Positions 14,426-54,283 of a DNA stretch of 64,000 bases are shown one piece after another. This DNA comes from Caldilineaceae bacterium (GTDB taxonomy: Bacteria > Chloroflexota > Anaerolineae > Caldilineales > Caldilineaceae), in NCBI GenBank assembly GCA_022842065.1, contig JALHQH010000061.1, forward strand, positions 1 to 64,000, read 5' to 3'. The notes beneath the pieces are model-generated. The model was not told the DNA's origin and ran no database searches. It was given only the letters and a program-made list of their open reading frames with translations. The translations under genes were made by a program, and so were the position numbers. The stretch's first letter is position 1; each line of letters starts with the position of its first letter.

Positions 14426-14434
14426 AACGCTAGG

Positions 14435-14844
14435 TGGAGATGGTGGGAATTGAACCCACGTCCGAAACATTCGTCCAGAGACCTCTACAGGCTTAGTTGC
14501 ACATTTGTTGTTTCACCGAACGGACTCCGTGCAACGGGATTCCTTTGCTCGGTTAGCCGATAGATCTTAGGCGGCCTTTATCGGCATCCGGCCGCCGCAA
14601 CTCCTCAGTATATGTCAGCATCGATCTAGCCTGCGAGCACCACTAGTTCGCGCTGTGACCCTGGTTAGGGGGTCAGTTTTCAACCGCTAATTAAGCAGCA
14701 ACCGCCATAGGGGCGCTAGCAAAACCGAAGTTGAAATGTTTGCCTGTGTTGGCATTTATAGGTGTTGCGCCTGTTTTAACGTAGTCCGACGCTCTACGGC
14801 CTGCCATCCAAGAACAGCCTGCCCCGTCGAAACCGGACATCCCC
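14435..14844 (-). ncRNA. ssrA: Transfer-messenger RNA (tmRNA)
   Basis: About 410 nt. The 5' end GGGGATG pairs with CATCTCC near the 3' end to make the tRNA-like acceptor stem, and GTCCGGTTTCGACGG follows as in canonical tmRNA. The T-arm GTGGGTTCAATTCCCAC is intact. The 3' CCA is not encoded (the genome reads CCT after the discriminator A). The tag reading frame is at 14691-14753. A U-rich hairpin terminator follows. It rescues stalled ribosomes with SmpB, tagging proteins for ClpXP-type proteolysis. Confidence 0.96.
14691..14753 (-). other. tmRNA proteolysis-tag reading frame
   Basis: The frame starts at a GCC resume codon (14751-14753) and encodes a 20-residue tag beginning ANTGKHFN and ending MAVAA, then TAA. 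The C-terminal A-V-A-A fits the hydrophobic Ala-Ala degron. The tag is longer than the 10-residue E. coli tag and is phenylalanine-rich. Confidence 0.85.
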
Positions 14845-27133: not shown

Positions 27134-29461
27134 ATGTTGCCGTTGACTGTTACAAATGTGCGTAAACGATTAACGCTGGGGCTGTTGCTTTTCGTCTGTT
27201 TGAACCTGGCGTGCAGTTCGCTTTTTTCTGCTGCATCGTCGCTACGCCAAACCGAACCGACGCCAAGCAGCGAAAGCGTTGCCGCCCAGCGCAGAACTGA
27301 GACAAAGGCCGAGACAGATACTGTTGCGCCTGCGGCGGCTGTTTTAGTCGCCACCCCAACCCCTAGCGCTGTTGACGCTGGTTTGGTTGCTGACCCAGCA
27401 AGGGCTGCAACCGCCCCTTTCGGTGCAGAAATAGCCACCCGTTCGATCTACACGGGCGCGCTGGCTTCGGGGTGGGTAAACTGGTCTTGGGATGCCGGGA
27501 TTGACTTTGCCGGGGCCGCCACCGATGGCGCTGCCGCCCTTGCCGTGACTTATCAGGCCGCATGGGGCGCACTCTATTTGCATAGTGATGCGGCCATCGC
27601 TGCCACTGCTTTTGACTACTTACGCTTTCGAATTCATGGGGGCGCAACCGGTGGTCAGCATCTAGTAATCGCCCTGGCCGATGCCGGGGGCGCGTTTCAA
27701 CCGACAGGCATGGCGGTTTCAGCCGCCGCCAATGCCTGGCAAACCATTGAAGTACCCCTGGCCGCGGCCGGCAATCTCACCCACATCACGGGGATTGCCT
27801 GGCAAGAGGCCAGAGGCGAAACACAGCCGACCTTTTATCTCGATAAGATCGAGTTGGTGGACATCAGCCTGCCGCCCACACCTACGCCGGTCCCCGTTGC
27901 GGGTCCTGCGCTCCGTGTCGATGCTTCCACCCCATTACGTATGATTCGCCCAGAGATCTATGGGATTAACTTTGCCGACGAAGCACTGGCAAAGGAGCTT
28001 GCGTTACCTGTCCGCCGCTGGGGTGGTAATGGCACCACCCGCTATAACTGGCAGATCGACACGGCAAGTCATACGAGCGACTGGTTTTTTGAGAACATAC
28101 CAAAAGAGAATAGTAATGAAGCGTTATTGCCCGTCGGTTCGGCTGCTGATCAATTTGTCGAACAGGATCGGCGGACGGGCACCAAGAGTCTGTTAACCAT
28201 GCCGCTCATTGGCTGGACGCCCAAAAGCCGTGAGATCAGTTGTGGCTTTAGTGTCGCCAAGTATGGGCCACAACAAGCGGTTGATCCGTGGCGTACAGAC
28301 TGTGGCAATGGCATCGATCCGACCGGTGAATTGATCCGTGGTAACGATCCAAGGGACACCAGCGTGCCGATTGATGAGCGTTTTGTGGAAGCCTGGCTAC
28401 AACACTTGATCGGGCGCTTCGGTCGGGCAGATGCAGGTGGCGTCGCCTACTACAGCTTGGACAACGAGCCAATGCTCTGGCATGAGACCCACCGGGATGT
28501 GCATCCGGAACCGCTCAGTTACGACGAATTGCGCGATCTGACCTACCGCTATGGGGCGACGATCAAGCGGGTCGATCCAACGGCGCAGACCGTCGGGCCG
28601 GCCTTCTGGGGCTGGACTGCCTACTTTTACTCCGCCCTTGATCGGGCGGCTGGTGACAGTTGGTGGAATCGTGCCCCCGATCGGAATGCGCATGGGGGCT
28701 TGCCGCTGACGGCCTGGTATCTGGCCCAAATGCAAGCGTACGAAGCGATGCATGGGGTGCGCCTGCTGGACTATCTGGATCTGCATTACTATCCCCAGGC
28801 AACGGGGGTTGCCCTGGGGACCGCCGGCAACAGTGAAACCCAACTGCTGCGGCTGCGAAGTACCCGTTCGCTCTGGGATCCCACCTATGTGGACGAGAGC
28901 TGGATCGGGGAGTCGGTGCAATTGATTCGGCGCATGCGGGCCTGGGTCGATGAGTATTACCCCGGTACAAAGCTGGCGATCAGTGAATATAATTGGGGTG
29001 GGCTAGAGCACATAAATGGTGCACTGGCCCAAGCCGAAGTGTTGGGCATCTTTGGTCGTGAAGGGTTGGATATGGCGATGTTGTGGGACCCGTTGGCGGG
29101 TGATGCCCCTTACGCCTATGCTTTCCGGCTCTATCGCAACTATGATGGCCAGGGCAGCCAATTTGGGGAAATGAGCCTGGCCGCCGAGAGCACCGATCCG
29201 GCGCAACTGGCGATCTATGCCGCCCGCCGCAGCGGTGATCAAGCCGTGACGGTACTGGTAATTAATAAAAATCAAGGGCCTTTGCGCACCAAGCTGACGA
29301 TTAGTGGATTGGGTCGCGCAGGTAGCGCAGCCGTTTATCAATATAGCAGCGACGCATTAAACGAGATCATCCGCTTGCCCGATCAACCGTTTGCTGCCGA
29401 CGGCACTTTTGAGACAATTGTCGCCGGCCAGGCCCTAACTTTATACGTGATTCAACCTTAG
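27134..29461 (+). CDS. GH44-type glycoside hydrolase lipoprotein
   Basis: A 775-residue exported lipoprotein. The lipobox LNLAC places Cys27 as the lipidation site. A Ser/Thr/Ala linker precedes a jelly-roll carbohydrate-binding-like domain (about 100-245, ending FYLDKIELVDI) and a TPTP linker. The GH44 catalytic domain begins about 262. RRWGGNGTTRYNWQ is the family signature; the acid/base is E445 in SLDNEPMLWH and the nucleophile E618 in AISEYNWG. GH44 enzymes cleave beta-1,4-glucans such as xyloglucan or cellulose derivatives. Inside a polysaccharide locus it probably trims or releases the locus's own polymer. Confidence 0.9.
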   Translation: MLPLTVTNVRKRLTLGLLLFVCLNLACSSLFSAASSLRQTEPTPSSESVAAQRRTETKAETDTVAPAAAVLVATPTPSAVDAGLVADPARAATAPFGAEIATRSIYTGALASGWVNWSWDAGIDFAGAATDGAAALAVTYQAAWGALYLHSDAAIAATAFDYLRFRIHGGATGGQHLVIALADAGGAFQPTGMAVSAAANAWQTIEVPLAAAGNLTHITGIAWQEARGETQPTFYLDKIELVDISLPPTPTPVPVAGPALRVDASTPLRMIRPEIYGINFADEALAKELALPVRRWGGNGTTRYNWQIDTASHTSDWFFENIPKENSNEALLPVGSAADQFVEQDRRTGTKSLLTMPLIGWTPKSREISCGFSVAKYGPQQAVDPWRTDCGNGIDPTGELIRGNDPRDTSVPIDERFVEAWLQHLIGRFGRADAGGVAYYSLDNEPMLWHETHRDVHPEPLSYDELRDLTYRYGATIKRVDPTAQTVGPAFWGWTAYFYSALDRAAGDSWWNRAPDRNAHGGLPLTAWYLAQMQAYEAMHGVRLLDYLDLHYYPQATGVALGTAGNSETQLLRLRSTRSLWDPTYVDESWIGESVQLIRRMRAWVDEYYPGTKLAISEYNWGGLEHINGALAQAEVLGIFGREGLDMAMLWDPLAGDAPYAYAFRLYRNYDGQGSQFGEMSLAAESTDPAQLAIYAARRSGDQAVTVLVINKNQGPLRTKLTISGLGRAGSAAVYQYSSDALNEIIRLPDQPFAADGTFETIVAGQALTLYVIQP

Positions 29462-29486
29462 TCGCCATACACGAGAATGGCGGACG

Positions 29487-29534
29487 GTAACAGTTAGCCT
29501 TTGCGCTGATTGCGCGACGCACGCTAACCGTTAC
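29487..29534. repeat. Inverted repeat with GCGACGCACGCT core
   Basis: GTAACAGTTAGC (29487-29498) and GCTAACCGTTAC (29523-29534) are complementary with one mismatch. The spacer end GCGACGCACGCT also occurs in the right arm of the hairpin at 61-126. It lies in the 88-bp gap between GH44 and the polymerase gene. Confidence 0.55.
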
Positions 29535-29549
29535 ACATTAACGATCATT

Positions 29550-31103
29550 ATGATGCAAACCTTTGCCGGCCCGTCACAATGGGCAACTGTAACCTATCAG
29601 CTGCAACGGCAGACGCGCTATCGGCGGCTCTGGTTGATTGCGATCTTGGGGTTGGCTGCGGTCACGGCATTGGTCATGGCCGTGAGTGGTCCGACGCCGC
29701 TACCCATTGGGGCCGGCCTCTTTCTGGCCACCGTGGCGGCCATCTATTATCAACCGCGCTACGGTCTCTATTTTATGCTTTTTTGCTCGCTCGTTGGTGA
29801 TAGTGTGCTGCTCTATTCCTATCCCTTTACCAAGAACTTATCGAGCGTCGAATCGCTGCTCTATATTAGTGATGCGCTGATTTTTAGTCCACTTGAGCTT
29901 TACCTGTTGCTCACCGTCGTCATCTGGTTGGGCAAAGCAACCATGCAACGGCGGCTAAAGTTTCAGACTGGCCCGCTCTTTTGGCCGACGCTGGCCTTTA
30001 TGCTCTTGCAGGTCGGGGGCTTGGTCTATGGCTTGGGGACGGGGGGCAGTGTGAATGTGGCGCTGTGGGAATCGCGGGCGATCTTTTACCTGCCCATCCT
30101 GCTGGTGCTGGTCAGTAATCTGATTACCGAACGGGCCCATGTGATGGCGCTGATCTGGACCATCATGATTGCCCTTTTGATTGAAGGCATCATCGGCATC
30201 ATCATCTTTATGACCCGCCATCATGGTAGCCTGGCGGGCGTGGAATCGATTACCGAGCACTCGGCTGCGATTCACATGAATACGCTCTTTGTCCTGCTGC
30301 TGGCGAGCTGGCTCTTTGGCGCAGACGCAACCAAGCGCTTCGGCTTGCTTTTGATGATGCCGCCGGTGTTGGTCACTTATATCATTACGCAGCGCCGGGC
30401 CGCGTTTGTTGGCTTGGGGATTGTCATCTTCTTGCTGGCTGTGATTTTTCATCGACTGCAGCGCCGGCTCTTTTGGATTGTCATGCCGATCCTTGCCGTG
30501 GTTGGGCTGCTCTATCTGGCTGCTTTTTGGAATAGCAATAGCGCCCTTGGTTTTATGGCCAGTGCCGTCAAGTCGATTGTGGCCCCGGATGCCGGTAGCG
30601 CTGATGAATCTTCCAATCTCTATCGGGTATTGGAGAATATTAATATCGCCAGCACGATTCATGATGCGCCGGTCACCGGCGTTGGCTATGGGCAGAAGTT
30701 TCATATCTTGGTGCCGATGCCGGATATCAGCTTCTTTGTCTGGTGGGAATATATTGTCCACAACTCGATCTTTTGGATTTGGTTGAAGAGTGGCCTGTTA
30801 GGCTTTCTCGCCGTGCTCTTTTTGGCCGGCTACAGTGTCATGCGCGGGGCCGCCACAGTCTGGCAGATGCCGGATCCTGATCTGCAGGCGGTTGCCTTTA
30901 CCATCGCGGCCTATCTGTTGATGCACTTTGTTTATGCCTATGTCGATATGTCTTGGGATGGCCAGAGCATGTTGTATGTGGGCACAGCTTTGGGGTTGAT
31001 CGGCGTGTTGGAACGCCTGATCAAGTTGCCGCAAGCCGTGCCGGCCACCATCCAACGGCTGCGTCGCCCAGCCCAACCAGCGGAGCAGATCGACTATGCA
31101 TAA
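29550..31103 (+). CDS. O-antigen polymerase/ligase-like membrane protein (Wzy-like)
   Basis: A 517-residue polytopic protein with about 11-12 transmembrane segments. A large periplasmic loop around residues 340-400 carries SSNLYRVLENINIASTIHDAP, VTGVGYGQKFH and PHNS-like HNSIFWIWLKSGLLG, the pattern of the Wzy_C/O-antigen ligase superfamily. It overlaps the acyltransferase by 8 nt. It would polymerise repeat units delivered by the flippase at 24337. The ligase role cannot be excluded, but the locus otherwise lacks a polymerase. Confidence 0.87.
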   Translation: MMQTFAGPSQWATVTYQLQRQTRYRRLWLIAILGLAAVTALVMAVSGPTPLPIGAGLFLATVAAIYYQPRYGLYFMLFCSLVGDSVLLYSYPFTKNLSSVESLLYISDALIFSPLELYLLLTVVIWLGKATMQRRLKFQTGPLFWPTLAFMLLQVGGLVYGLGTGGSVNVALWESRAIFYLPILLVLVSNLITERAHVMALIWTIMIALLIEGIIGIIIFMTRHHGSLAGVESITEHSAAIHMNTLFVLLLASWLFGADATKRFGLLLMMPPVLVTYIITQRRAAFVGLGIVIFLLAVIFHRLQRRLFWIVMPILAVVGLLYLAAFWNSNSALGFMASAVKSIVAPDAGSADESSNLYRVLENINIASTIHDAPVTGVGYGQKFHILVPMPDISFFVWWEYIVHNSIFWIWLKSGLLGFLAVLFLAGYSVMRGAATVWQMPDPDLQAVAFTIAAYLLMHFVYAYVDMSWDGQSMLYVGTALGLIGVLERLIKLPQAVPATIQRLRRPAQPAEQIDYA

Positions 31104-31713
31104 GTTGCGCCAGGTATTGCGGGAAGAGCTGGAGGGGGTTCATGGCCGTTGGCTGCTGGCCCAGGCCGCATTGGCACTGTTGCCCCCCTTTGTCGGCAGC
31201 CGTCTACGGGTGCGTGTGCTGCGGTTGGCTGGTTTTCGCATCGGTCATGGCACGGTGCTGTGGGGCACGCCCACCATTCTGGGCAGCGGTGATCTCTATC
31301 CCCGGCTGCAAATTGGCCGTGACTGTTGGGTGAATGTGGGCTGTCTCTTTGATCTCAATGCGCCCATTATGCTTGGCGACCGGGTTGCCCTCGGCCAACA
31401 GGTGATGATTCTGACCAACACGCATCGAATTGGCGAGCAGGCGCGGCGGGCCGGCAGTTTAGCTGCCCTGCCGGTGCAGATCGAAGACGGGGCCTGGTTG
31501 AGCACCCGCTGTACCATTTTGCCGGGCGTGACAGTGGGGGCCGGGGCGGTGGTCGCGGCGGGTGCCGTCGTCACCCGCTCGGTGCCGCCCCACACGATGG
31601 TGGGGGGGATTCCAGCCCAGCCTATTCGCGAATTACCCATCGATGACCCGCTCGATCGACTGGCGGCAACGCCGGGGCCAGGTCGGTGGCAAGGTGAACG
31701 GTTACCTGTCTAG
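31096..31713 (+). CDS. Hexapeptide-repeat (left-handed beta-helix) acyltransferase
   Basis: A 205-residue cytoplasmic acetyltransferase of the CysE/WbbJ/NodL type. Isoleucine/valine-initiated hexapeptides begin near GRDCWVNVGCLFDLN (about 74-88). The catalytic histidine is in LTNTHRIG (about 112-119), and TILPGVTVGAGAVVAAGAVV (about 139-158) is the late coil. It probably O-acetylates sugars of the repeat unit or its precursor. The start overlaps the polymerase end, so translation is coupled. Confidence 0.9.
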   Translation: MHKLRQVLREELEGVHGRWLLAQAALALLPPFVGSRLRVRVLRLAGFRIGHGTVLWGTPTILGSGDLYPRLQIGRDCWVNVGCLFDLNAPIMLGDRVALGQQVMILTNTHRIGEQARRAGSLAALPVQIEDGAWLSTRCTILPGVTVGAGAVVAAGAVVTRSVPPHTMVGGIPAQPIRELPIDDPLDRLAATPGPGRWQGERLPV

Positions 31714-31785
31714 CCCTGAATGGATTAACTTATGACTGAACGTTTCGCGGTAAGTAACATGCACAAGCCTTGGGAGAGAAGTACG

Positions 31786-32793
31786 ATGCCTGATGTGAGT
31801 ATTGTCCTGCCCACCTATAATCGCCGGCTGCAGTTGCAGCAGGTGTTGGTTGGGTTGGAACGGCAAAGCTACCCGGCCAGCAAATTTGAAGTGATTGTGA
31901 TTTCCGATGGTTCGACTGATGGCACCAATGAGTATCTGCACGCGCTACGGGAGCAGAGTCAACTGACGCTCAATGTGGTCGTTCAGGCGAATCAAGGGCC
32001 TTCCGCTGCACGGAACTCGGGCATTCACCAGGCGGCGGGTACGATCGTACTCTTCCTTGATGATGATGTTGTGCCGGTGCCTGACTTAATTGCCCAGCAC
32101 ATGGCCACCCATGCCCAATTCAGCGACGATGTCGTCGTGATCGGCCCCATGTTAACCCCACGCGACTTTGATATGAAGCCCTGGGTGCGCTGGGAACAGG
32201 CGATGTTGGACAAACAATATGCGGATACAGCCGCGGCCCATTGGGAATCGAGCGCCCGTAAGTTTTATACCGGCAATGCCTCGCTGGCCCGGCGTCATCT
32301 GCTCGATGCCAACGGCTTTGATACCAACTTCCGGCGCTCGGAAGATGTGGAACTGGCCTATCGGCTGGCCGAACAAGGGATTAAGTTTGTCTTTAATCCC
32401 CATGCCATCGGCTATCACTATGCCGAACGCAGCTTTGCTTCCTGGCTCCAGACGCCCTATCAGTATGGGCGCAACGATGTCATCTGTGCGCGTGACAAGG
32501 GGCACAGTTGGTTGCTCCCGACGATTGGCCGCGAGTTTCACAGCCGCCATTCCTTTACCAAGCTGTTGACGCGCCTGTGCCTTTCCCGGCGCACAACCAA
32601 TGCCGCGGCCATCACCCTCTTGCGCCATGTGGCAGCGGTTGGTAGCCTGGTCGGTTGGGAATGGTTGCCGCAACGCGCGTATAGTGGCATCTTTAATTTG
32701 CGCCATTATCAGGGCGTAACCGATGAATTGGGGGGACGACAGCAGTTCTTCCGCCTGGTGGCGCAATCCGCTGAAGTGGGCGAACTAGGCTGA
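31786..32793 (+). CDS. Family 2 glycosyltransferase
   Basis: A 335-residue GT-A-fold glycosyltransferase. VSIVLPTYNRRLQLQ opens the nucleotide-binding fold; the metal site is FLDDDVVPV, and the acceptor region carries GNASLARR and EDVELAYRL. ATG 31786 has GGGAGAGAA upstream and starts right at the GT fold; an ATG at 31732 is an alternative adding 18 residues. It probably adds one sugar to the lipid-linked repeat unit. Confidence 0.88.
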   Translation: MPDVSIVLPTYNRRLQLQQVLVGLERQSYPASKFEVIVISDGSTDGTNEYLHALREQSQLTLNVVVQANQGPSAARNSGIHQAAGTIVLFLDDDVVPVPDLIAQHMATHAQFSDDVVVIGPMLTPRDFDMKPWVRWEQAMLDKQYADTAAAHWESSARKFYTGNASLARRHLLDANGFDTNFRRSEDVELAYRLAEQGIKFVFNPHAIGYHYAERSFASWLQTPYQYGRNDVICARDKGHSWLLPTIGREFHSRHSFTKLLTRLCLSRRTTNAAAITLLRHVAAVGSLVGWEWLPQRAYSGIFNLRHYQGVTDELGGRQQFFRLVAQSAEVGELG

Positions 32794-32885
32794 ACAAGCG
32801 TTATCCCGTGATTGTTTTGAAAACCACATGTTTGAGCGTTAGTGCCATAAAATCTCGGTTTTCAAACAGAGCAGAGTATTTATCC

Positions 32886-33653
32886 ATGATTCGTCGCTTT
32901 ACTTATTGTCTGTTCGTGACCGGTTGGCTCTTGTCTGCCTGCACATCGACCCCTACATCGCTCCCTCCGCTGCCGACCGTTATGCCGATCTTTCAAGCCG
33001 ATGCATCGCCAACGGCGACGCCGCTAGTCTCCGCCTTACCAGTTGCGGCACTGCCCGCCGGCGCGGCGGTAAACGCCGCAACGTACCGGGCGGTCTATCT
33101 CTATGATGAAGGGTTGGCAGCGCCGTGGTCGTTGGATTTTACCCAGAATATGCGGGTCGATCAACTGGATACCAGCCACTGGTTTGAGGTACTTGACAGT
33201 GCCAGCGGGCAAGATGTGGGGGCGGTGACCTTAGCCGTAACCCCGGAAAAGGCCTGGGGCGAGCTCTATTTTACCCTGCGCCCCACCGTCACTGTTGGCT
33301 ATCTGCGCGAGGATGTCCAGGGCATCAGCTTCTGGCTCAACAGTGGGGATGGTTATCTGAGCAACGATGCGCTGGTGGTCACAGTCGTCGGCAGCAATGA
33401 GCAGATCTATTGGTCTGCGGCGGATACATCGGCCTTGACCGAAGTGGGGTATTTCCCCGAAATTCCGCTCTACGACCTGGCGATTAACGATGCGATCCCA
33501 CCTGATACCTGGGTGCATGTGATCTTATCGATGGATAAATTGCTCTTTGGGCCAGATTATCGTTATGTAACGGGGATTTATCTGAAGAACAAGTCGTTTT
33601 ATGAAAACACGTTTTACATTGACAAGCTAGCGCTGTTGGTTACAGAAAAATAG
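32886..33653 (+). CDS. Lipoprotein with carbohydrate-binding-like jelly roll
   Basis: A 255-residue lipoprotein. The N-terminus MIRRFTYCLFVTGWLLSAC contains a lipobox with Cys19. A Pro/Thr linker leads to a jelly-roll domain (about 85-255). The closing strand FYIDKLALLV parallels FYLDKIELV in the N-terminal domain of the GH44 lipoprotein of this locus, so the two may be homologous carbohydrate-binding modules. An earlier in-frame start (32808) would place the lipobox too deep. It presumably binds the exported polymer at the cell surface. Confidence 0.75.
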   Translation: MIRRFTYCLFVTGWLLSACTSTPTSLPPLPTVMPIFQADASPTATPLVSALPVAALPAGAAVNAATYRAVYLYDEGLAAPWSLDFTQNMRVDQLDTSHWFEVLDSASGQDVGAVTLAVTPEKAWGELYFTLRPTVTVGYLREDVQGISFWLNSGDGYLSNDALVVTVVGSNEQIYWSAADTSALTEVGYFPEIPLYDLAINDAIPPDTWVHVILSMDKLLFGPDYRYVTGIYLKNKSFYENTFYIDKLALLVTEK

Positions 33654-33662
33654 AGGCAGTTT

Positions 33663-34610
33663 GTGGCTGTTGATATTGTGGTCCCAACCCGCAACCGGGC
33701 TGCGTTAATTGGGGTTGCCATCGAGAGCGTCTGTCGCAGCAGTTATCCAGATTTTACCCTTTGGATTGTCGATCAAAGCGACGACAACGCAACAAAAGAG
33801 GTCGTCGCTGTCTATCAGGTGAGCGATGCACGGATTCGCTATCTGCGTGTTACGTCACGCGGGGCCAACTTTGCTCGCAATGAGGGCACGGCACAAGGGT
33901 GTGCGCCGATCGTGCTCTTTATCGATGATGATTGTCGGGTCGATGCGGAGTGGCTAGCAACCTTGGTGACGGAATTAGAAGAGCCGGCGGTTTGGGCTGC
34001 CTTTGGGCGGGTGATCCCCGATGATGAACTTTCCAGCGCTGCACAAGCCGGTGCCCGGCAGGTTTCCCGTGCAATTCCCATGGCGCTCAAAGATTCACCA
34101 CAACGTCAGGTTTATGCCGGGAATCGTTTTGATCTGAGCTTTGGGCATGGTGCGAATATGGGGTGGCGGCGCGAACATTTTCTAGCCGTGGGTGGCTTTG
34201 ATGGGTTAATCGGTGCCGGTGGTGCCTTGGGCACTTGGGATGAAAAAGATGCTGGTTATCGTGCCCTCTCCCATCCCAGCGGGCGAATTATCTATACCCC
34301 TCATGCCCTGGTTTATCACCGCCATTGGCGCGGTTGGCAAGAGGTCTACAAAGCCTATCGCGCGTACGCGATTGGCACGGGGGCCGCGGCGGGCAAATAT
34401 CTCCGCTGTGGTGACATGGGCGGCTTTTCACTGTTGTGGGACTGGTTGTTGGATCAAGGTGTGCGTCAGGTGCTTTCAGGCATTCTCAAGTGGCAGAGCT
34501 GGCAAAAGGTACAAGTGGGGCTGCTACAACTAATTTATCCGTGGGTCGGTTTGATACAGGGCCTGCGTTACCCAATTGACCGTAAACATATGATCTACCT
34601 GAGCAAATAA
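33663..34610 (+). CDS. Family 2 glycosyltransferase
   Basis: A 315-residue GT-A-fold enzyme. VDIVVPTRNRAALI opens the fold, and LFIDDDCRVDAEW carries the metal-binding DDD. GHGANMGWRREHF and a later DEKDAGYR acid region follow. The start is GTG 33663, with GAGGCAG just upstream. A short C-terminal amphipathic/hydrophobic region (about 285-305) may touch the membrane. It adds a sugar to the repeat unit. Confidence 0.88.
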   Translation: MAVDIVVPTRNRAALIGVAIESVCRSSYPDFTLWIVDQSDDNATKEVVAVYQVSDARIRYLRVTSRGANFARNEGTAQGCAPIVLFIDDDCRVDAEWLATLVTELEEPAVWAAFGRVIPDDELSSAAQAGARQVSRAIPMALKDSPQRQVYAGNRFDLSFGHGANMGWRREHFLAVGGFDGLIGAGGALGTWDEKDAGYRALSHPSGRIIYTPHALVYHRHWRGWQEVYKAYRAYAIGTGAAAGKYLRCGDMGGFSLLWDWLLDQGVRQVLSGILKWQSWQKVQVGLLQLIYPWVGLIQGLRYPIDRKHMIYLSK

Positions 34611-34613
34611 CCT

Positions 34614-35825
34614 ATGTACAACATCGGTTTTATCCTAGAACAAGGGCTGGGCCATCGCACCCATACATTGAACCTGCAATCCAACGTGCCAAAGGATCGA
34701 TCGGTGCAGGCAATTTGGGGACTCATGGCGCACAAGACCACTGGGTGGACGACAAAAGTGCCTTTCTATAATCGTTATTGGACCATCCAAGCTGGTTTGC
34801 ATGCCCGGCAGAGCATTCGCCGAATGCAGCAGCAGACTAAATTGGATGCACTCTTTTTCCATACACAAGTTACGGCTGTATTGGCGACCAATTGGCTCAA
34901 GCGCATCCCCAGCATTGTTTCGCTAGATGCAACGCCAATCCAATATGACGCGCTGGGCGAGTTCTATGATCATCGACGTGGCCCAGATTGGATCGAACAG
35001 CAGAAATGGCAGCTTAACTATAATTGTTTCTGCCATGCACAACATCTGGTGGCCTGGTCTCACTGGGCGAAACAGGGGTTGATCGATGACTATCGCGTCG
35101 CCCCAGAAAAGGTTTCGGTGATTCCCCCTGGTATTACGGTGCAAGAGTGGCTCCGTCCGACCCCAATGGTGGTCACGCCGGGGCCGATTCGGGTGCTCTT
35201 TGTGGGTGGCAATCTGAAGCGCAAAGGTGGCTTACTGTTGCTCGAAGCCTTCCGCACCCTCTGGCAAGAAATGATTGCGGCCGGCCATGACCCGCTTTCA
35301 GCGTTGGAGCTGCATATGGTGACGCACGAGCCACTGCCGGCCGAGCCTGGCCTTTTTAGCTATCATGACATGGTGCCAAATAGTCCAGCATTGCGGGCAC
35401 TTTTTCAGCGCTGTGACATCTTCTGTCTGCCCACGTATGGGGACTGTCTACCGATTGCGCTGATCGAAGCCAGCGCGGCTGGGTTACCCTCGATTACCAC
35501 GCGGGTGGGTGGCACCGCCGAAGTGGTGACCCCAGAGCAGAATGGCTTTTTGATCGAGGTGGGCGATGTGGCCGCGCTGGTACAAACACTGCGGACCTTG
35601 ATCGCTAACCCCGAGTTGCGCTTACGCCAAAGCGCAACGGCCATGACGACTGCCAGCCAACGCTTTGATGCTGAGCAAACAACCTATCAGTTGTTGACGT
35701 TGCTCAAGCAGGCAAGCAATCGTAATTGTCATGTGGCACAGCTGGGGGCGGTCGATCAAACCATCGAGCCGGCCGAGAGTAGCTGCTTTGGCACGACCAT
35801 TACGGCAAAGATTTCCCATGTATAG
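34614..35825 (+). CDS. Family 4 glycosyltransferase (GT-B)
   Basis: A 403-residue GT-B enzyme. The C-terminal Rossmann domain contains VSVIPPGITVQEWLRP and FVGGNLKRKGGLLLLEAF. The retaining-GT4 EX7E-type region is ALIEASAAGLPSITTRVGGTAEVV (EASAAGLP core with G-x-x-E). It follows the previous gene by 3 nt. The N-terminal domain is divergent. It transfers an alpha-linked sugar; donor unknown. Confidence 0.88.
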   Translation: MYNIGFILEQGLGHRTHTLNLQSNVPKDRSVQAIWGLMAHKTTGWTTKVPFYNRYWTIQAGLHARQSIRRMQQQTKLDALFFHTQVTAVLATNWLKRIPSIVSLDATPIQYDALGEFYDHRRGPDWIEQQKWQLNYNCFCHAQHLVAWSHWAKQGLIDDYRVAPEKVSVIPPGITVQEWLRPTPMVVTPGPIRVLFVGGNLKRKGGLLLLEAFRTLWQEMIAAGHDPLSALELHMVTHEPLPAEPGLFSYHDMVPNSPALRALFQRCDIFCLPTYGDCLPIALIEASAAGLPSITTRVGGTAEVVTPEQNGFLIEVGDVAALVQTLRTLIANPELRLRQSATAMTTASQRFDAEQTTYQLLTLLKQASNRNCHVAQLGAVDQTIEPAESSCFGTTITAKISHV

Positions 35826-35883
35826 GTTTTCTATTCGCCCAGAAACTTCCTGTGTCAGCGATCAAGATGAGAAGGGGTCATCT

Positions 35884-37011
35884 GTGTCAGATTTAGTGCT
35901 AGCCGCATCAACATCGATGCAAACAGAGGCGATGCGGCCAGAGACAACTGTTGCCCGTACATTGATTACTGTCTCTACGGCTATCGATCCGAATATTGAG
36001 CATGAGATTGAACAACAACTGCGGCCACGCATTGATTACATCGAGCTAGCACGTACCTTTAATGCTGACTTGATCGACTATGGTCAGGCCCGACAGCGCA
36101 GCGGTTGGTTTGGTCGCCTGCTGGAAGCGATTGGTGGCCCCAATTTGACCCTGGCTTGGGCTAGCTTTCGGCAACGGGGTAACTATAAGGTGATCTTCAC
36201 GGACGGTGAACATATTGGCATTCCGCTGGCCTGGTTCTGCAAGCTTGGTGGCAGCCGGGGCAGCCGTCACCTGATGATTACCCATATCCTGTCCGTCTAT
36301 AAAAAGATGTTCTTTTTTGACATTTTTCGCCTGCAAAGCCATGTCGATCTCTTTTTAGTCTACTCGACCTGGCAGAAACAATTTATCGAGCAGCGTTGGG
36401 GTGTCCAGTCTGAACGCGTGGCCTTTACCCCCTTTATGGTTGATACGCGTTTCTTCTCACCCCAAAAGGTGATGCCCAAGCCGCAACTGCTGATCTGCTC
36501 GGCTGGGCTGGAATTTCGTGATTACCCGACCCTGATCAAAGTGGCCCATGACTTGCCGGTGCAGGTAGTGATTGCGGCCGGCAGCCCTTTTTCCAAGCGT
36601 CCAAACACGGCTGAGCAGGTTGCGCTACCACCCAATGTGACGGTTAGCCGTTTTACGCAATTTGAACTGCGCCAGCTCTATGCCGATAGCTTGTTCATCG
36701 TGATGCCGCTCTATAACGTTGATTTTCAGGCGGGTGTCACCGTGATTCTCGAAGCGATGGCCATGGCCAAGGCCGTGATCTGTTCCGGCACCCCCGGCCA
36801 GACTGATGTCGTGATTGATGGTGAGACGGGAATCTATGTCCCGCCGGAAGATCCCGTTGCCCTGCGTAACGCCATTGATTATTTGCTGGCCAATCCCGAT
36901 GTGGCGGCACGCATGGGCAACGCCGGTCGTCGGCTGGTCGAGCGTGAAATGAGCCTGGATTGTTACACCGAACGTTTGCATGGGTTTGTCCAGCGGGCAA
37001 TGGCTAGTTAG
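35884..37011 (+). CDS. Family 4 glycosyltransferase (GT-B)
   Basis: A 375-residue GT-B enzyme from GTG 35884, which has GAAGGGG 6 nt upstream; an in-frame ATG at 35818 overlapping the previous stop is an alternative. The C-terminal domain has CSAGLEFRDYPTLIKVAHDL, SRFTQFELRQLYADS and the donor-binding ILEAMAMAKAVICSGTPGQTDVV (EAMAMAKA core). The N-terminal domain includes TDGEHIGIPLAWF. It transfers a sugar within the repeat unit; specificity is unknown. A long imperfect inverted repeat follows its stop. Confidence 0.85.
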   Translation: MSDLVLAASTSMQTEAMRPETTVARTLITVSTAIDPNIEHEIEQQLRPRIDYIELARTFNADLIDYGQARQRSGWFGRLLEAIGGPNLTLAWASFRQRGNYKVIFTDGEHIGIPLAWFCKLGGSRGSRHLMITHILSVYKKMFFFDIFRLQSHVDLFLVYSTWQKQFIEQRWGVQSERVAFTPFMVDTRFFSPQKVMPKPQLLICSAGLEFRDYPTLIKVAHDLPVQVVIAAGSPFSKRPNTAEQVALPPNVTVSRFTQFELRQLYADSLFIVMPLYNVDFQAGVTVILEAMAMAKAVICSGTPGQTDVVIDGETGIYVPPEDPVALRNAIDYLLANPDVAARMGNAGRRLVEREMSLDCYTERLHGFVQRAMAS

Positions 37012-37149
37012 TTCTTGTTGCGAAACGCGATTTCTACCGCCAAGGGCGCGAAGAGCGCGAAGTACCGCCAGAGAAAATCCTTTGCGAACCTTTGCGGCCT
37101 TAGCGTTCTTGGCGGTGATCAAGCCCTTTCGCAACAGAAACTAGTTAGC
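37003..37149. repeat. Long imperfect inverted repeat between GT genes
   Basis: About 48-nt arms (37003-37052 against 37099-37149) match at roughly 80 percent and include ACCGCCAAG/CTTGGCGGT and GTTGCGAAA/TTTCGCAAC. The left arm overlaps the last codons of the upstream GT4 gene. The ACCGCCAAG-type motif is common in chloroflexotal intergenic DNA. Confidence 0.6.
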
Positions 37150-37249
37150 CAAAATCGACCAAACACCGGCATGTGTCGACGGCGCAGTCGGTGCGGTGTC
37201 AGCAATTTGTATTGTAAAACAGCGCAAAGCATGGAGAGGATAGATAAAC

Positions 37250-38467
37250 GTGGATCTGTTCCTGACGATCGCAGCGATTGGCTTCTGGCTACTGGGGGGC
37301 GTGCTGCTCTGTATGGTGACTTATCTATTGGTGTTAACGCTGGCTGCCTGGCTTGTGCCCAGCCGCCAGCCGAGCACAAAGGGGCCGGCGCGCCATCGTT
37401 TCCTCTTCTTGATCCCGGCGCATAATGAAGAGCAATTATTACCAAAATTATTAGCCAATCTACATCGGCTTGATTACCCAGCCTCGCACTATGCTGTACA
37501 TGTCGTTGCCGATAATTGTACGGATCGCACCGCAGAACTGGCGCGCCAGGGGGGAGCCGTTGCGCACGAACGGTTTGATCAGCTGCAGATCGGCAAGGGC
37601 TATGCCTTGGAATGGCTGCTCACCCGCGTCCGTGCCGTCGGTGAGCCCTTTGATGCGGCGGTGATTATTGATGCCGATTCGGTCGTCTCGGCTAACTTTC
37701 TGCGGGTCATGGATCAGCAACTGCAACAGGGCGCACTGGTGATTCAGTCCTATGATGGTGTCTTGAACCCAGGCCGCTCCTGGGCGGTTGGCTTACGGGC
37801 CATGGCCATGGCTGTGCTCAACTACTTGCGCCCCCTTGGCCGCATGCCATTGGGCGGGTCGGCTGGACTCAAGGGTAACGGCATGGTCTTCCACCGCACC
37901 ATTCTGGAACAATATGCCTGGTCGGCATCAGTGACCGAGGATATTGAGTATCACATGACCCTGCTCCTCAATGGTATCCGGGTACAATTTGCGCCCGCAG
38001 CGGTGGTCTGGGCCGAGATGCCGGAGACCCTGGCCAATTCGCACACCCAGAATGTGCGTTGGGAGCAAGGGCGCCTGGAGATGGTGCGGCGTTACACCCC
38101 GCGGTTGCTGCGCCATGCCTTCTTTCCCGGCAAAGGGCAACCGCAGGTCTCCCCTTGGGTGCTGTTGGATGCACTGATGGACCTGCTGATTCCGCCTTTT
38201 GCGATTGTGGCTGGGGTGACTCTCCTTTTTCTCGTCCTGGCCCCGCTGCTGGGGGGCACAGTCGGGGTGGCCGTGGCAATCTACCTGCTGGTCGGGCAAC
38301 TGCTTTACTTGCTGAGTGGGCTACTCTTGACCAAGGCTCCGGGCAAAGTTTACTTGGCCCTGCTTTATACACCAATCTTTATCGTCTGGAAGATCTGGCT
38401 CTATCTGCGGGTCCTGCTCCGTTTTGAACGCCAGGGCTGGGTACGTGCGGTCCGTGATAGTGGTTAG
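37250..38467 (+). CDS. Membrane-bound family 2 glycosyltransferase (BcsA-like)
   Basis: A 405-residue processive-type GT2. An N-terminal TM (about 4-30) precedes the catalytic domain. PAHNEEQLLPKL, VADNCTDRT, the metal-binding VIIDADSVV, the acceptor-base region TEDIEYHM and the QNVRWEQGR version of QxxRW are all present. Three C-terminal TM segments (about 310-385) follow. The GTG start at 37250 has GGAGAGGA 10 nt upstream. These enzymes elongate or transfer beta-linked sugars at the membrane. Whether it is processive is not evident. Confidence 0.9.
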   Translation: MDLFLTIAAIGFWLLGGVLLCMVTYLLVLTLAAWLVPSRQPSTKGPARHRFLFLIPAHNEEQLLPKLLANLHRLDYPASHYAVHVVADNCTDRTAELARQGGAVAHERFDQLQIGKGYALEWLLTRVRAVGEPFDAAVIIDADSVVSANFLRVMDQQLQQGALVIQSYDGVLNPGRSWAVGLRAMAMAVLNYLRPLGRMPLGGSAGLKGNGMVFHRTILEQYAWSASVTEDIEYHMTLLLNGIRVQFAPAAVVWAEMPETLANSHTQNVRWEQGRLEMVRRYTPRLLRHAFFPGKGQPQVSPWVLLDALMDLLIPPFAIVAGVTLLFLVLAPLLGGTVGVAVAIYLLVGQLLYLLSGLLLTKAPGKVYLALLYTPIFIVWKIWLYLRVLLRFERQGWVRAVRDSG

Positions 38468-53444: not shown

Positions 53445-54029
53445 CTAAGCCACTTCCCACTTGCGCACAAATTGCTCGGGTTCGACCCCTAGCGCATCTG
53501 CCACCCGGTTAATGTAGTTGAAATAGGCGATCACTTGCGTTGCATCGTGAATGGCGCGGTCGTCAAAGCCGTGACGGCGCAACTCATCTAGATCGTGCGG
53601 CCCCATCGCCGCCGACTCGGTGGTCATTTTCACGGCAAAGTGGCAGAGCGCGCGATCCACGGCACGCAGTTCAGCCGCTCGCCAATCATGGGCAATCTGG
53701 TGGGTAAAGTGGTCGGCGGCATCCGCCGTGGTAATCCCGAAATCGGCGACCTCAGCACGGAGGTCGTGGGCATGTGCACGCCGTCAATAGAGGCAATGAT
53801 TCTGCGCCGAAACCACGGTCGCCAGCAGCTCACGCTGGCCACGGCTTAACGGCGATGGTCCATGCATCAGCGCACCATAGAGATCCATCGACGCCTTCAG
53901 GGCCGGTGGATTCTGGCTCATAATCGCGACAATATTCCAGATCCGCCCTGCGCGTTGCAGCGCTTGCTCATATTGCTCCCGCAGAAAACCGGTCGCTTCC
54001 TCCAGGCTAAAGACTTTGATCCAGGGCAT
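53445..54029 (-). CDS. AhpD-like peroxidase-related protein, probable selenoprotein (CxxU)
   Basis: A 194-residue carboxymuconolactone-decarboxylase/AhpD-like protein if UGA codon 82 (53784-53786) is read as selenocysteine. Residues 1-81 end in VVSAQNHCLY; the TGA replaces the second Cys of the C-x2-C-x3-H site (family CxYCxxxH), and RRAH supplies the histidine at the right spacing. The frame then continues open to the stop at 53445 with family text ITTADAADHF and ATQVIAYFNYINRVADALG. A SECIS-like hairpin follows the TGA. CMD/AhpD proteins are thiol peroxidase-like enzymes. A nonsense mutation is the alternative, but the position, continued conservation and hairpin argue against it. Confidence 0.87.
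53747..53786 (-). promoter_or_regulatory. Candidate bacterial SECIS element
   Basis: Downstream of UGA (53784-53786), CGACCTC (53760-53766) pairs with GAGGTCG (53747-53753) in a 7-bp stem with a 6-nt loop CGTGCT. The loop's GU lies 26-27 nt after the UGA, within the range for bacterial SECIS hairpins, and the stem is inside the coding sequence as in other bacterial selenoproteins. SelB recruitment is the inferred role. Confidence 0.75.
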
Positions 54030-54283
54030 AGGTTGTGCTTTCTGTTGTGGTGGGTGGGAGGAGGTAGATAGGTAAATCAGTACATCGGTAAATCAGTACA
54101 TCGGGTAACGACCAAGCCACCCCTCCCCTGCTAAGGGAGGGAACTTGGGTCTCCCAGCTAGATCCCCTCCCCAAACTGGGGAGGGTTAGGGAGGGGTTAG
54201 TCGTTACTAAATCGGTATATCGGTCTATACTCCTTATCTACTGATTTACCTATCTACTGATCTACTTCCTCTCTCTCTACCCC
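54030..54283. other. Repeat-rich gap between hisC and the selenoprotein-like gene
   Basis: No gene is supported. The gap holds a GTAACGAC-family element (54105-54207). Outside it, pieces of GTAGATAGGTAAATCAGTACATCGG occur in inverted form on both sides (about 54064-54105 and 54207-54265), so the element is nested in a second, AT-richer palindrome. Both structures lie upstream of the leftward AhpD-like gene. Confidence 0.55.
54105..54207. repeat. GTAACGAC-family element, copy 3
   Basis: Ends GTAACGACCAAGCC and GGTTAGTCGTTAC are inverted copies. Inside, an imperfect CCCTCCCC...GGGGAGGG hairpin has a 23-nt loop closely similar to that of the compound copy at 25847-25923. No transposase is encoded. 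Confidence 0.75.

Follow-up and report, generated by a model that had tools for sequence, protein, structure and literature searches.

AhpD-like proteins with selenocysteine (Sec) in a CXXU motif have been in print since 2005, when a study of the Sargasso Sea described 27 sequences of COG2128 (PMC1088965). The GOS data of 2008 added 299 sequences of AhpD-like 1 and 70 of AhpD-like 2, the latter under pfam02627 (PMC2398784), a later marine survey put AhpD-like proteins at 9.5% of selenoprotein genes (PMC9402790), and a 2026 review lists an 'AhpD-like protein, TIGR01926, CxxU' with MCB9421940.1 as its example (PMC13188914). For Chloroflexi, a 2006 survey gave three selenoproteins in three families (PMC1794560).

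The locus described here lies in a 64,000-nucleotide stretch of DNA, the whole of which was analysed and is called the window below. As AhpD-like CxxU selenoproteins are already published, the family is known and the window gene is a further member of it. A preceding sequence-only reading had announced a new selenoprotein, which holds for the copy itself but not for its kind; it also noted that CxxU AhpD-like selenoproteins are reported from metagenomes, and such proteins are indeed in print (PMC1088965, PMC2398784, PMC13188914). The literature searched, a body that leaves most subscription journals outside, yielded no account of the Chloroflexota clade described below or of its frozen hairpin.

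A split frame and its family

The earlier reading named no strand, and the gene proves to lie on the minus strand. There, 54029..53445 translates as one 194-residue frame whose sole interruption is a TGA at 53786..53784, and one plus-strand frame over 53445..54029 contains stops. The frame runs from an ATG (54029..54027) to a TAG (53447..53445) and encodes a protein beginning MPWIKVFS and ending KWEVA. The features are as follows.

53445..54029, minus strand: predicted full selenoprotein gene, 194 codons from ATG to TAG, with TGA codon 82 as Sec; TIGR01926/PF02627.
53784..53786, minus strand: in-frame UGA, predicted Sec82, at the second position of C-x-x-U-x3-H; TGA in all 42 distinct close genes.
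53747..53766, minus strand: SECIS-like hairpin with a 7 bp stem and a 6-nt loop, CGUGCU, identified by published rules, pairing and frozen codons.
53784..54029, minus strand: first standard-code piece from ORF calling, 81 aa, terminating at the Sec codon.
53445..53660, minus strand: second standard-code piece from ORF calling, 71 aa from a GTG.

As had been predicted, the frame stays open past the TGA to a proper stop, and standard calling breaks it into pieces of 81 and 71 aa. The sequences on both sides of the TGA are conserved between the window protein and five orthologues, and the MPWIKVFS start, except from residues 8-9 onward, is invariant in all six. We conclude from these comparisons and those below that this is almost certainly an intact selenoprotein gene, in which UGA82 is decoded as Sec in an AhpD-like, peroxidase-related protein of TIGR01926. 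What appears to be a broken gene is thus very probably an intact enzyme gene.

With Sec given as C, the window protein scores 145 bits against the TIGR01926 peroxidase-related enzyme model (cut-off 81.8). It is this family model and the motif, CxxU with Sec second, that liken it to the published AhpD-like proteins of TIGR01926/COG2128, for which Cys homologues are known. The CMD domain, PF02627, is matched at 41.2 bits (cut-off 23). PF02627 and CxxU are features shared with a CMD-domain selenoprotein from the Sargasso Sea (4 sequences) and with AhpD-like 2 of GOS, although in the review CMD-like proteins have an entry of their own, separate from that of TIGR01926 (PMC13188914). The protein is not a member of NF041238 (AhpD_rel_CFYUT, alkylhydroperoxidase-related (seleno)protein), a model of a related AhpD domain with the motif CFYUT in its name: it reaches 60.9 bits over model positions 215-339 of 357, short of the cut-off of 175.

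Codon 82 sits in the motif C79-L-Y-U82-R-R-A-H86. Five solved proteins of the Cys type (6k40, 3c1l, 2pfx, 2oyo and 2prr) align from residue 8-19 to 185, and in three of these alignments (6k40, 3c1l and 2pfx) U82 stands opposite the second Cys of CxxC, as the earlier reading had placed it; Sec82 would thus take the place of that Cys. In AhpD-like proteins a proton relay is made up of Glu, Cys, Tyr or His, Cys and His, and PA0269, in which these are Glu36, Cys48, Tyr50, Cys51 and His55, reduces H2O2 weakly (PMC3141380). The window protein has the same spacing (E, +12 C, +14 Y/H, +15 C/U, +19 H), and its E67, C79, Y81, U82 and H86 are invariant in the window and the five orthologues. By analogy with AhpD, these residues would form a proton relay and the protein would have peroxidase activity. 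Most likely, the selenol of U82 would attack the hydroperoxide, C79 would serve as the resolving thiol, forming a Cys-Sec bond, and a thiol donor would reduce that bond. The opposite assignment, in which C79 rather than U82 attacks, is possible because human Sestrin2, which retains only the first Cys, still reduces alkyl hydroperoxides (PMC4674687).

The TGA codon across relatives and databases

A scan of contigs gave 11 relatives. The closest five, at 66-71% identity, come from chloroflexotal MAGs, and all five have TGA at the codon. The six remoter relatives (L006-L011, 29-34% identity) have Cys in CLYC, a count that is meaningless since one of the six search words contained that Cys. A profile of six TGA genes was then searched over genomes. 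Among 301 genomes drawn evenly from the phylum, 16 gave a total of 19 places at E<=1e-30; 16 of these places contain one TGA (one of them a TAG too) and three contain none. Matches at E<=1e-55 were found in 10 of 158 genomes in the class of G005 and in 44 of 396 in the class of G004. All 54 have one in-frame TGA and no other stop, with no Cys form among them in either class, and in each of the 41 for which the DNA was read the TGA falls exactly at the Sec codon.

Counting the window, 42 of 42 distinct close genes carry TGA here. Across all 62 rows read, five of which are second copies of the same gene, there are 59 TGA, one TGT (L054) and two TGC (L056 and L057), the Cys codons belonging to remoter homologues; every relative whose DNA was read has either TGA or Cys at this position. 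The Cys that the sequence-only reading expected opposite the TGA is thus present in L054, L056, L057, L006-L011, 6k40, 3c1l and 2pfx. The locus accordingly shows both an in-frame UGA in a frame conserved on either side and a pairing of Sec with Cys homologues.

These counts bear directly on the suspicion that the TGA is a nonsense mutation, the mark of a pseudogene or a sequencing error at a Cys codon. Standard calling does split the gene, and TGC and TGT are each one base away from TGA. However, the TGA recurs in all 41 other distinct close genes, from many separate assemblies, both halves of the gene are conserved, and synonymous codons are frozen behind the TGA, as set out below. Conservation of the TGA across relatives refutes damage or error as a general reading, and for the window copy we consider it extremely improbable. 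A known selenoprotein family is, on this evidence, conserved in environmental Chloroflexota.

Protein databases often hold such genes split or mis-translated. The protein collection gave 519 relatives, 120 of which were listed. Among those 120, 41 are C-terminal pieces starting directly behind the Sec codon, 58 have W at the Sec position, seven are gapped or uncovered there, and the rest show 7 C, 2 G, 2 R, 1 L, 1 D and 1 I. The W in these records probably reflects TGA rendered as Trp by a gene caller. Taken at face value, the 58 W among the 120 of 519 listed would favour a reassignment of UGA in this organism, for example to Trp or Gly, which would make codon 82 an ordinary sense codon. That reading is hardly credible: TGA serves as the stop of 8 of the 35 long mechanical ORFs of the window, the frame contains a single TGA placed precisely at the redox residue, relatives have selA, selB and selD, and the motif would be lost with Trp as its reactive residue. 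Decoding as Sec remains the preferred account.

Several of the listed records deserve separate mention. Where Sec would stand, P0012, P0022, P0025, P0034 and P0037 have G, R or L, by mis-calling of TGA or by real change. P0015-P0020 and P0030 have Cys there, and in P0015, P0018 and P0020, as aligned, the motif has Thr instead of its first Cys.

Remoter TIGR01926-like genes at 35-46% identity (L046, L048, L051, L052, L053, L055, L058 and L059) also have TGA at the same codon. The best-scoring hairpin in these eight genes (ACGGAG...CUCCGU or alike) has its loop 16-18 nt from the UGA, not 24, and in L060 the best-scoring hairpin lies at 28 nt. Three genomes (G005, G147 and G245) each hold one close and one remote TGA gene.

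A hairpin held in the coding sequence

Behind the UGA, the mRNA can form the hairpin CGACCUC-CGUGCU-GAGGUCG, whose first base is the 18th nt after the UGA; the loop starts after 24 nt, and its G and U are nt 26 and 27. The published rules for a bacterial SECIS ask for a loop of 3-9 nt, a stem of 4-16 bp, a G in the first two loop positions, a distance of 16-37 nt from the UGA and an energy of <= -7.5 kcal/mol (PMC13188914). With 6 nt in its loop, 7 bp, G second, 24 nt and -10.2 kcal/mol, the window hairpin lies within all of them, which bears out the earlier proposal of a SECIS-like fold with GU 26-27 nt after the UGA.

By itself this hairpin is weak-to-modest evidence for a SECIS. The two strands of the window contain 2036 TGA triplets, 89 of which satisfy the same rules and 30 of which are followed by a hairpin of equal or greater stability, and the folding of the window hairpin is equalled in 13 of 200 shuffles (z -1.59). 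Chance is excluded, however, by the joint conservation of TGA, frame and hairpin in the relatives. Rfam, at its gathering thresholds and at E<=10, gave no match to a SECIS family. It returned a tmRNA gene (14432-14844, minus strand, tag ANTGKHFNFGFASAPMAVAA) and, within the selenoprotein gene, one match to IRES_Bip at 9.4 bits, which was taken as chance. An extra stem between the UGA and the hairpin was dropped, as it is absent from the consensus fold.

At the hairpin site, a stem of 6 bp or more can form in 41 of the 42 distinct close genes. Thirty genes have the loop CGUGCU, CGUGCC or CGUGCA and 12 have CGGGCU or CGGGCC, and four (L045, L072, L082 and L097) fold more weakly than -7.5 kcal/mol. 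Stem pairing was measured on the 42 aligned genes, 38 of them distinct over the 48 nt. Of the alignment cells in the stem, 98.1% are paired; shifting one side by 1-3 columns lowers this figure to 16-43%. At two stem pairs, columns 21/40 and 24/37, both sides have changed; in the latter, C-G becomes U-A in L076, L082 and L086 through a silent change at Asp89 and a change of Val94 to Ile. Three of five covariation measures exceed all 500 shuffles, and the other two, the number of double-changed pairs (83/500) and the number of pair types (500/500), do not go beyond them. RNAalifold predicted the same helix unprompted. A covariance model built without the window recovered the window site with 60.4 bits, a large share of which is plain sequence homology, with the next best at 12.9; when the Cys forms and the remoter TGA genes were searched, the hairpin model produced no more than three matches, all weak.

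Codon choice in the hairpin is also constrained. Leu90 is CTC in 42 of 42 genes, whereas at columns 61 and 69, the two other conserved Leu positions, CTC accounts for 20 of 83 codons. All 42 genes use GAG for Glu93, and 24 of 42 use it for Glu67. Arg91 is CGT in 30 genes, CGG in 12 and CGC in none of the 42, against 94 CGC in 168 at the invariant Arg26, 29, 63 and 66. As the genes share ancestry, the counts do not represent independent events, but the frozen codons indicate that the stretch is held at the level of RNA as well as of protein. This makes the locus a clear case in which an RNA signal within a coding region is visible both as frozen codons and as a Val-to-Ile change that is paired with a silent one on the opposite side of the stem. 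From this conservation, it seems that a hairpin just behind the UGA would guide Sec insertion, with SelB and tRNA-Sec decoding codon 82 as selenocysteine.

How efficiently this happens bears on one further reading, that Sec is rarely inserted, so that the main product has 81 residues or the UGA acts as a selenium-sensing regulatory stop. In bacteria, UGA competes with termination, and the stability of the hairpin, at -10.2 kcal/mol, is modest. We nonetheless regard this reading as very unlikely, since the whole C-terminal half is strongly conserved, which argues that the full-length protein is under selection.

Selenocysteine machinery, distribution and neighbourhood

The hosts of the five orthologues have selA in all five cases, selB in four and selD in four, each over its cut-off. 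With 150 candidates scored per genome, tRNA-Sec exceeded its cut-off in two of the five, both confirmed by ARAGORN. One such tRNA-Sec, used as a DNA query, matched 6 of 12 genomes, four at 88-100% identity and two weakly, at 74-77%, which may be other tRNAs; G004 has a tRNA-Sec by Rfam that this query missed. Three selD matches, L034, L037 and L039 (in G003, G001 and G004), contain one in-frame TGA each, which would fit a SelD of the Sec type.

Of the genomes with the TGA form, 48 of 54 have selB over the cut-off and six assemblies show none; selB is also over the cut-off in 7 of 8 genomes outside this set that lie close to the window by the marker GdhA (see below). This co-occurrence is weak, because 234 of 301 genomes across the phylum have selB in any case, and we rejected it as proof; it agrees with Sec decoding, consistently but not strongly. 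In the 301-genome draw, 12 of the 13 TGA-form genomes are also selB-positive, and the remaining one, G251, carries a match resembling tRNA-Sec (88%). A scan of 28 long ORFs of the window, 20 of which were compared at E<=1e-60 only, found no gene of the Sec machinery, a result that says little.

The glutamate dehydrogenase (GdhA) encoded in the window shares 80% identity with its counterpart in G715 and 75-77% with those of G650, G573, G721 and G775, all from the class of G004, and at most 60% with any in the class of G005. On this one marker, the window is placed in the class of G004, which we take to be Anaerolineae, within Chloroflexota. A TGA gene at E<=1e-55 is present in five (G523, G642, G727, G760 and G765) of the 13 genomes closest to the window by GdhA, and the other eight have no match at that threshold, so the distribution is patchy. 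The GdhA matches in G066:C90, G335:C11 and G347:C149 each span one or two TGAs.

Taking these lines together, we think it likely that Chloroflexota hold an old, obligate and patchily kept Sec clade of TIGR01926, with codons frozen by the hairpin and with most of its database relatives split or mis-translated.

In the window, the selenoprotein gene is flanked by hisC upstream and by an oligopeptide/nickel-type ABC transporter downstream. An operon partner was sought and rejected: across seven flanking genes scanned in three relatives, the flanks differ among the window, L002, L004 and L005, and for this reason we propose no partner. Elsewhere in the window, 27134-38467 may be an exopolysaccharide cluster, with matches to the EpsB, EpsD and EpsU models below cut-off. 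At 54060-54275, on the way from hisC to the selenoprotein gene, short words such as AAATCAGTACATCGG can be seen by eye to recur.
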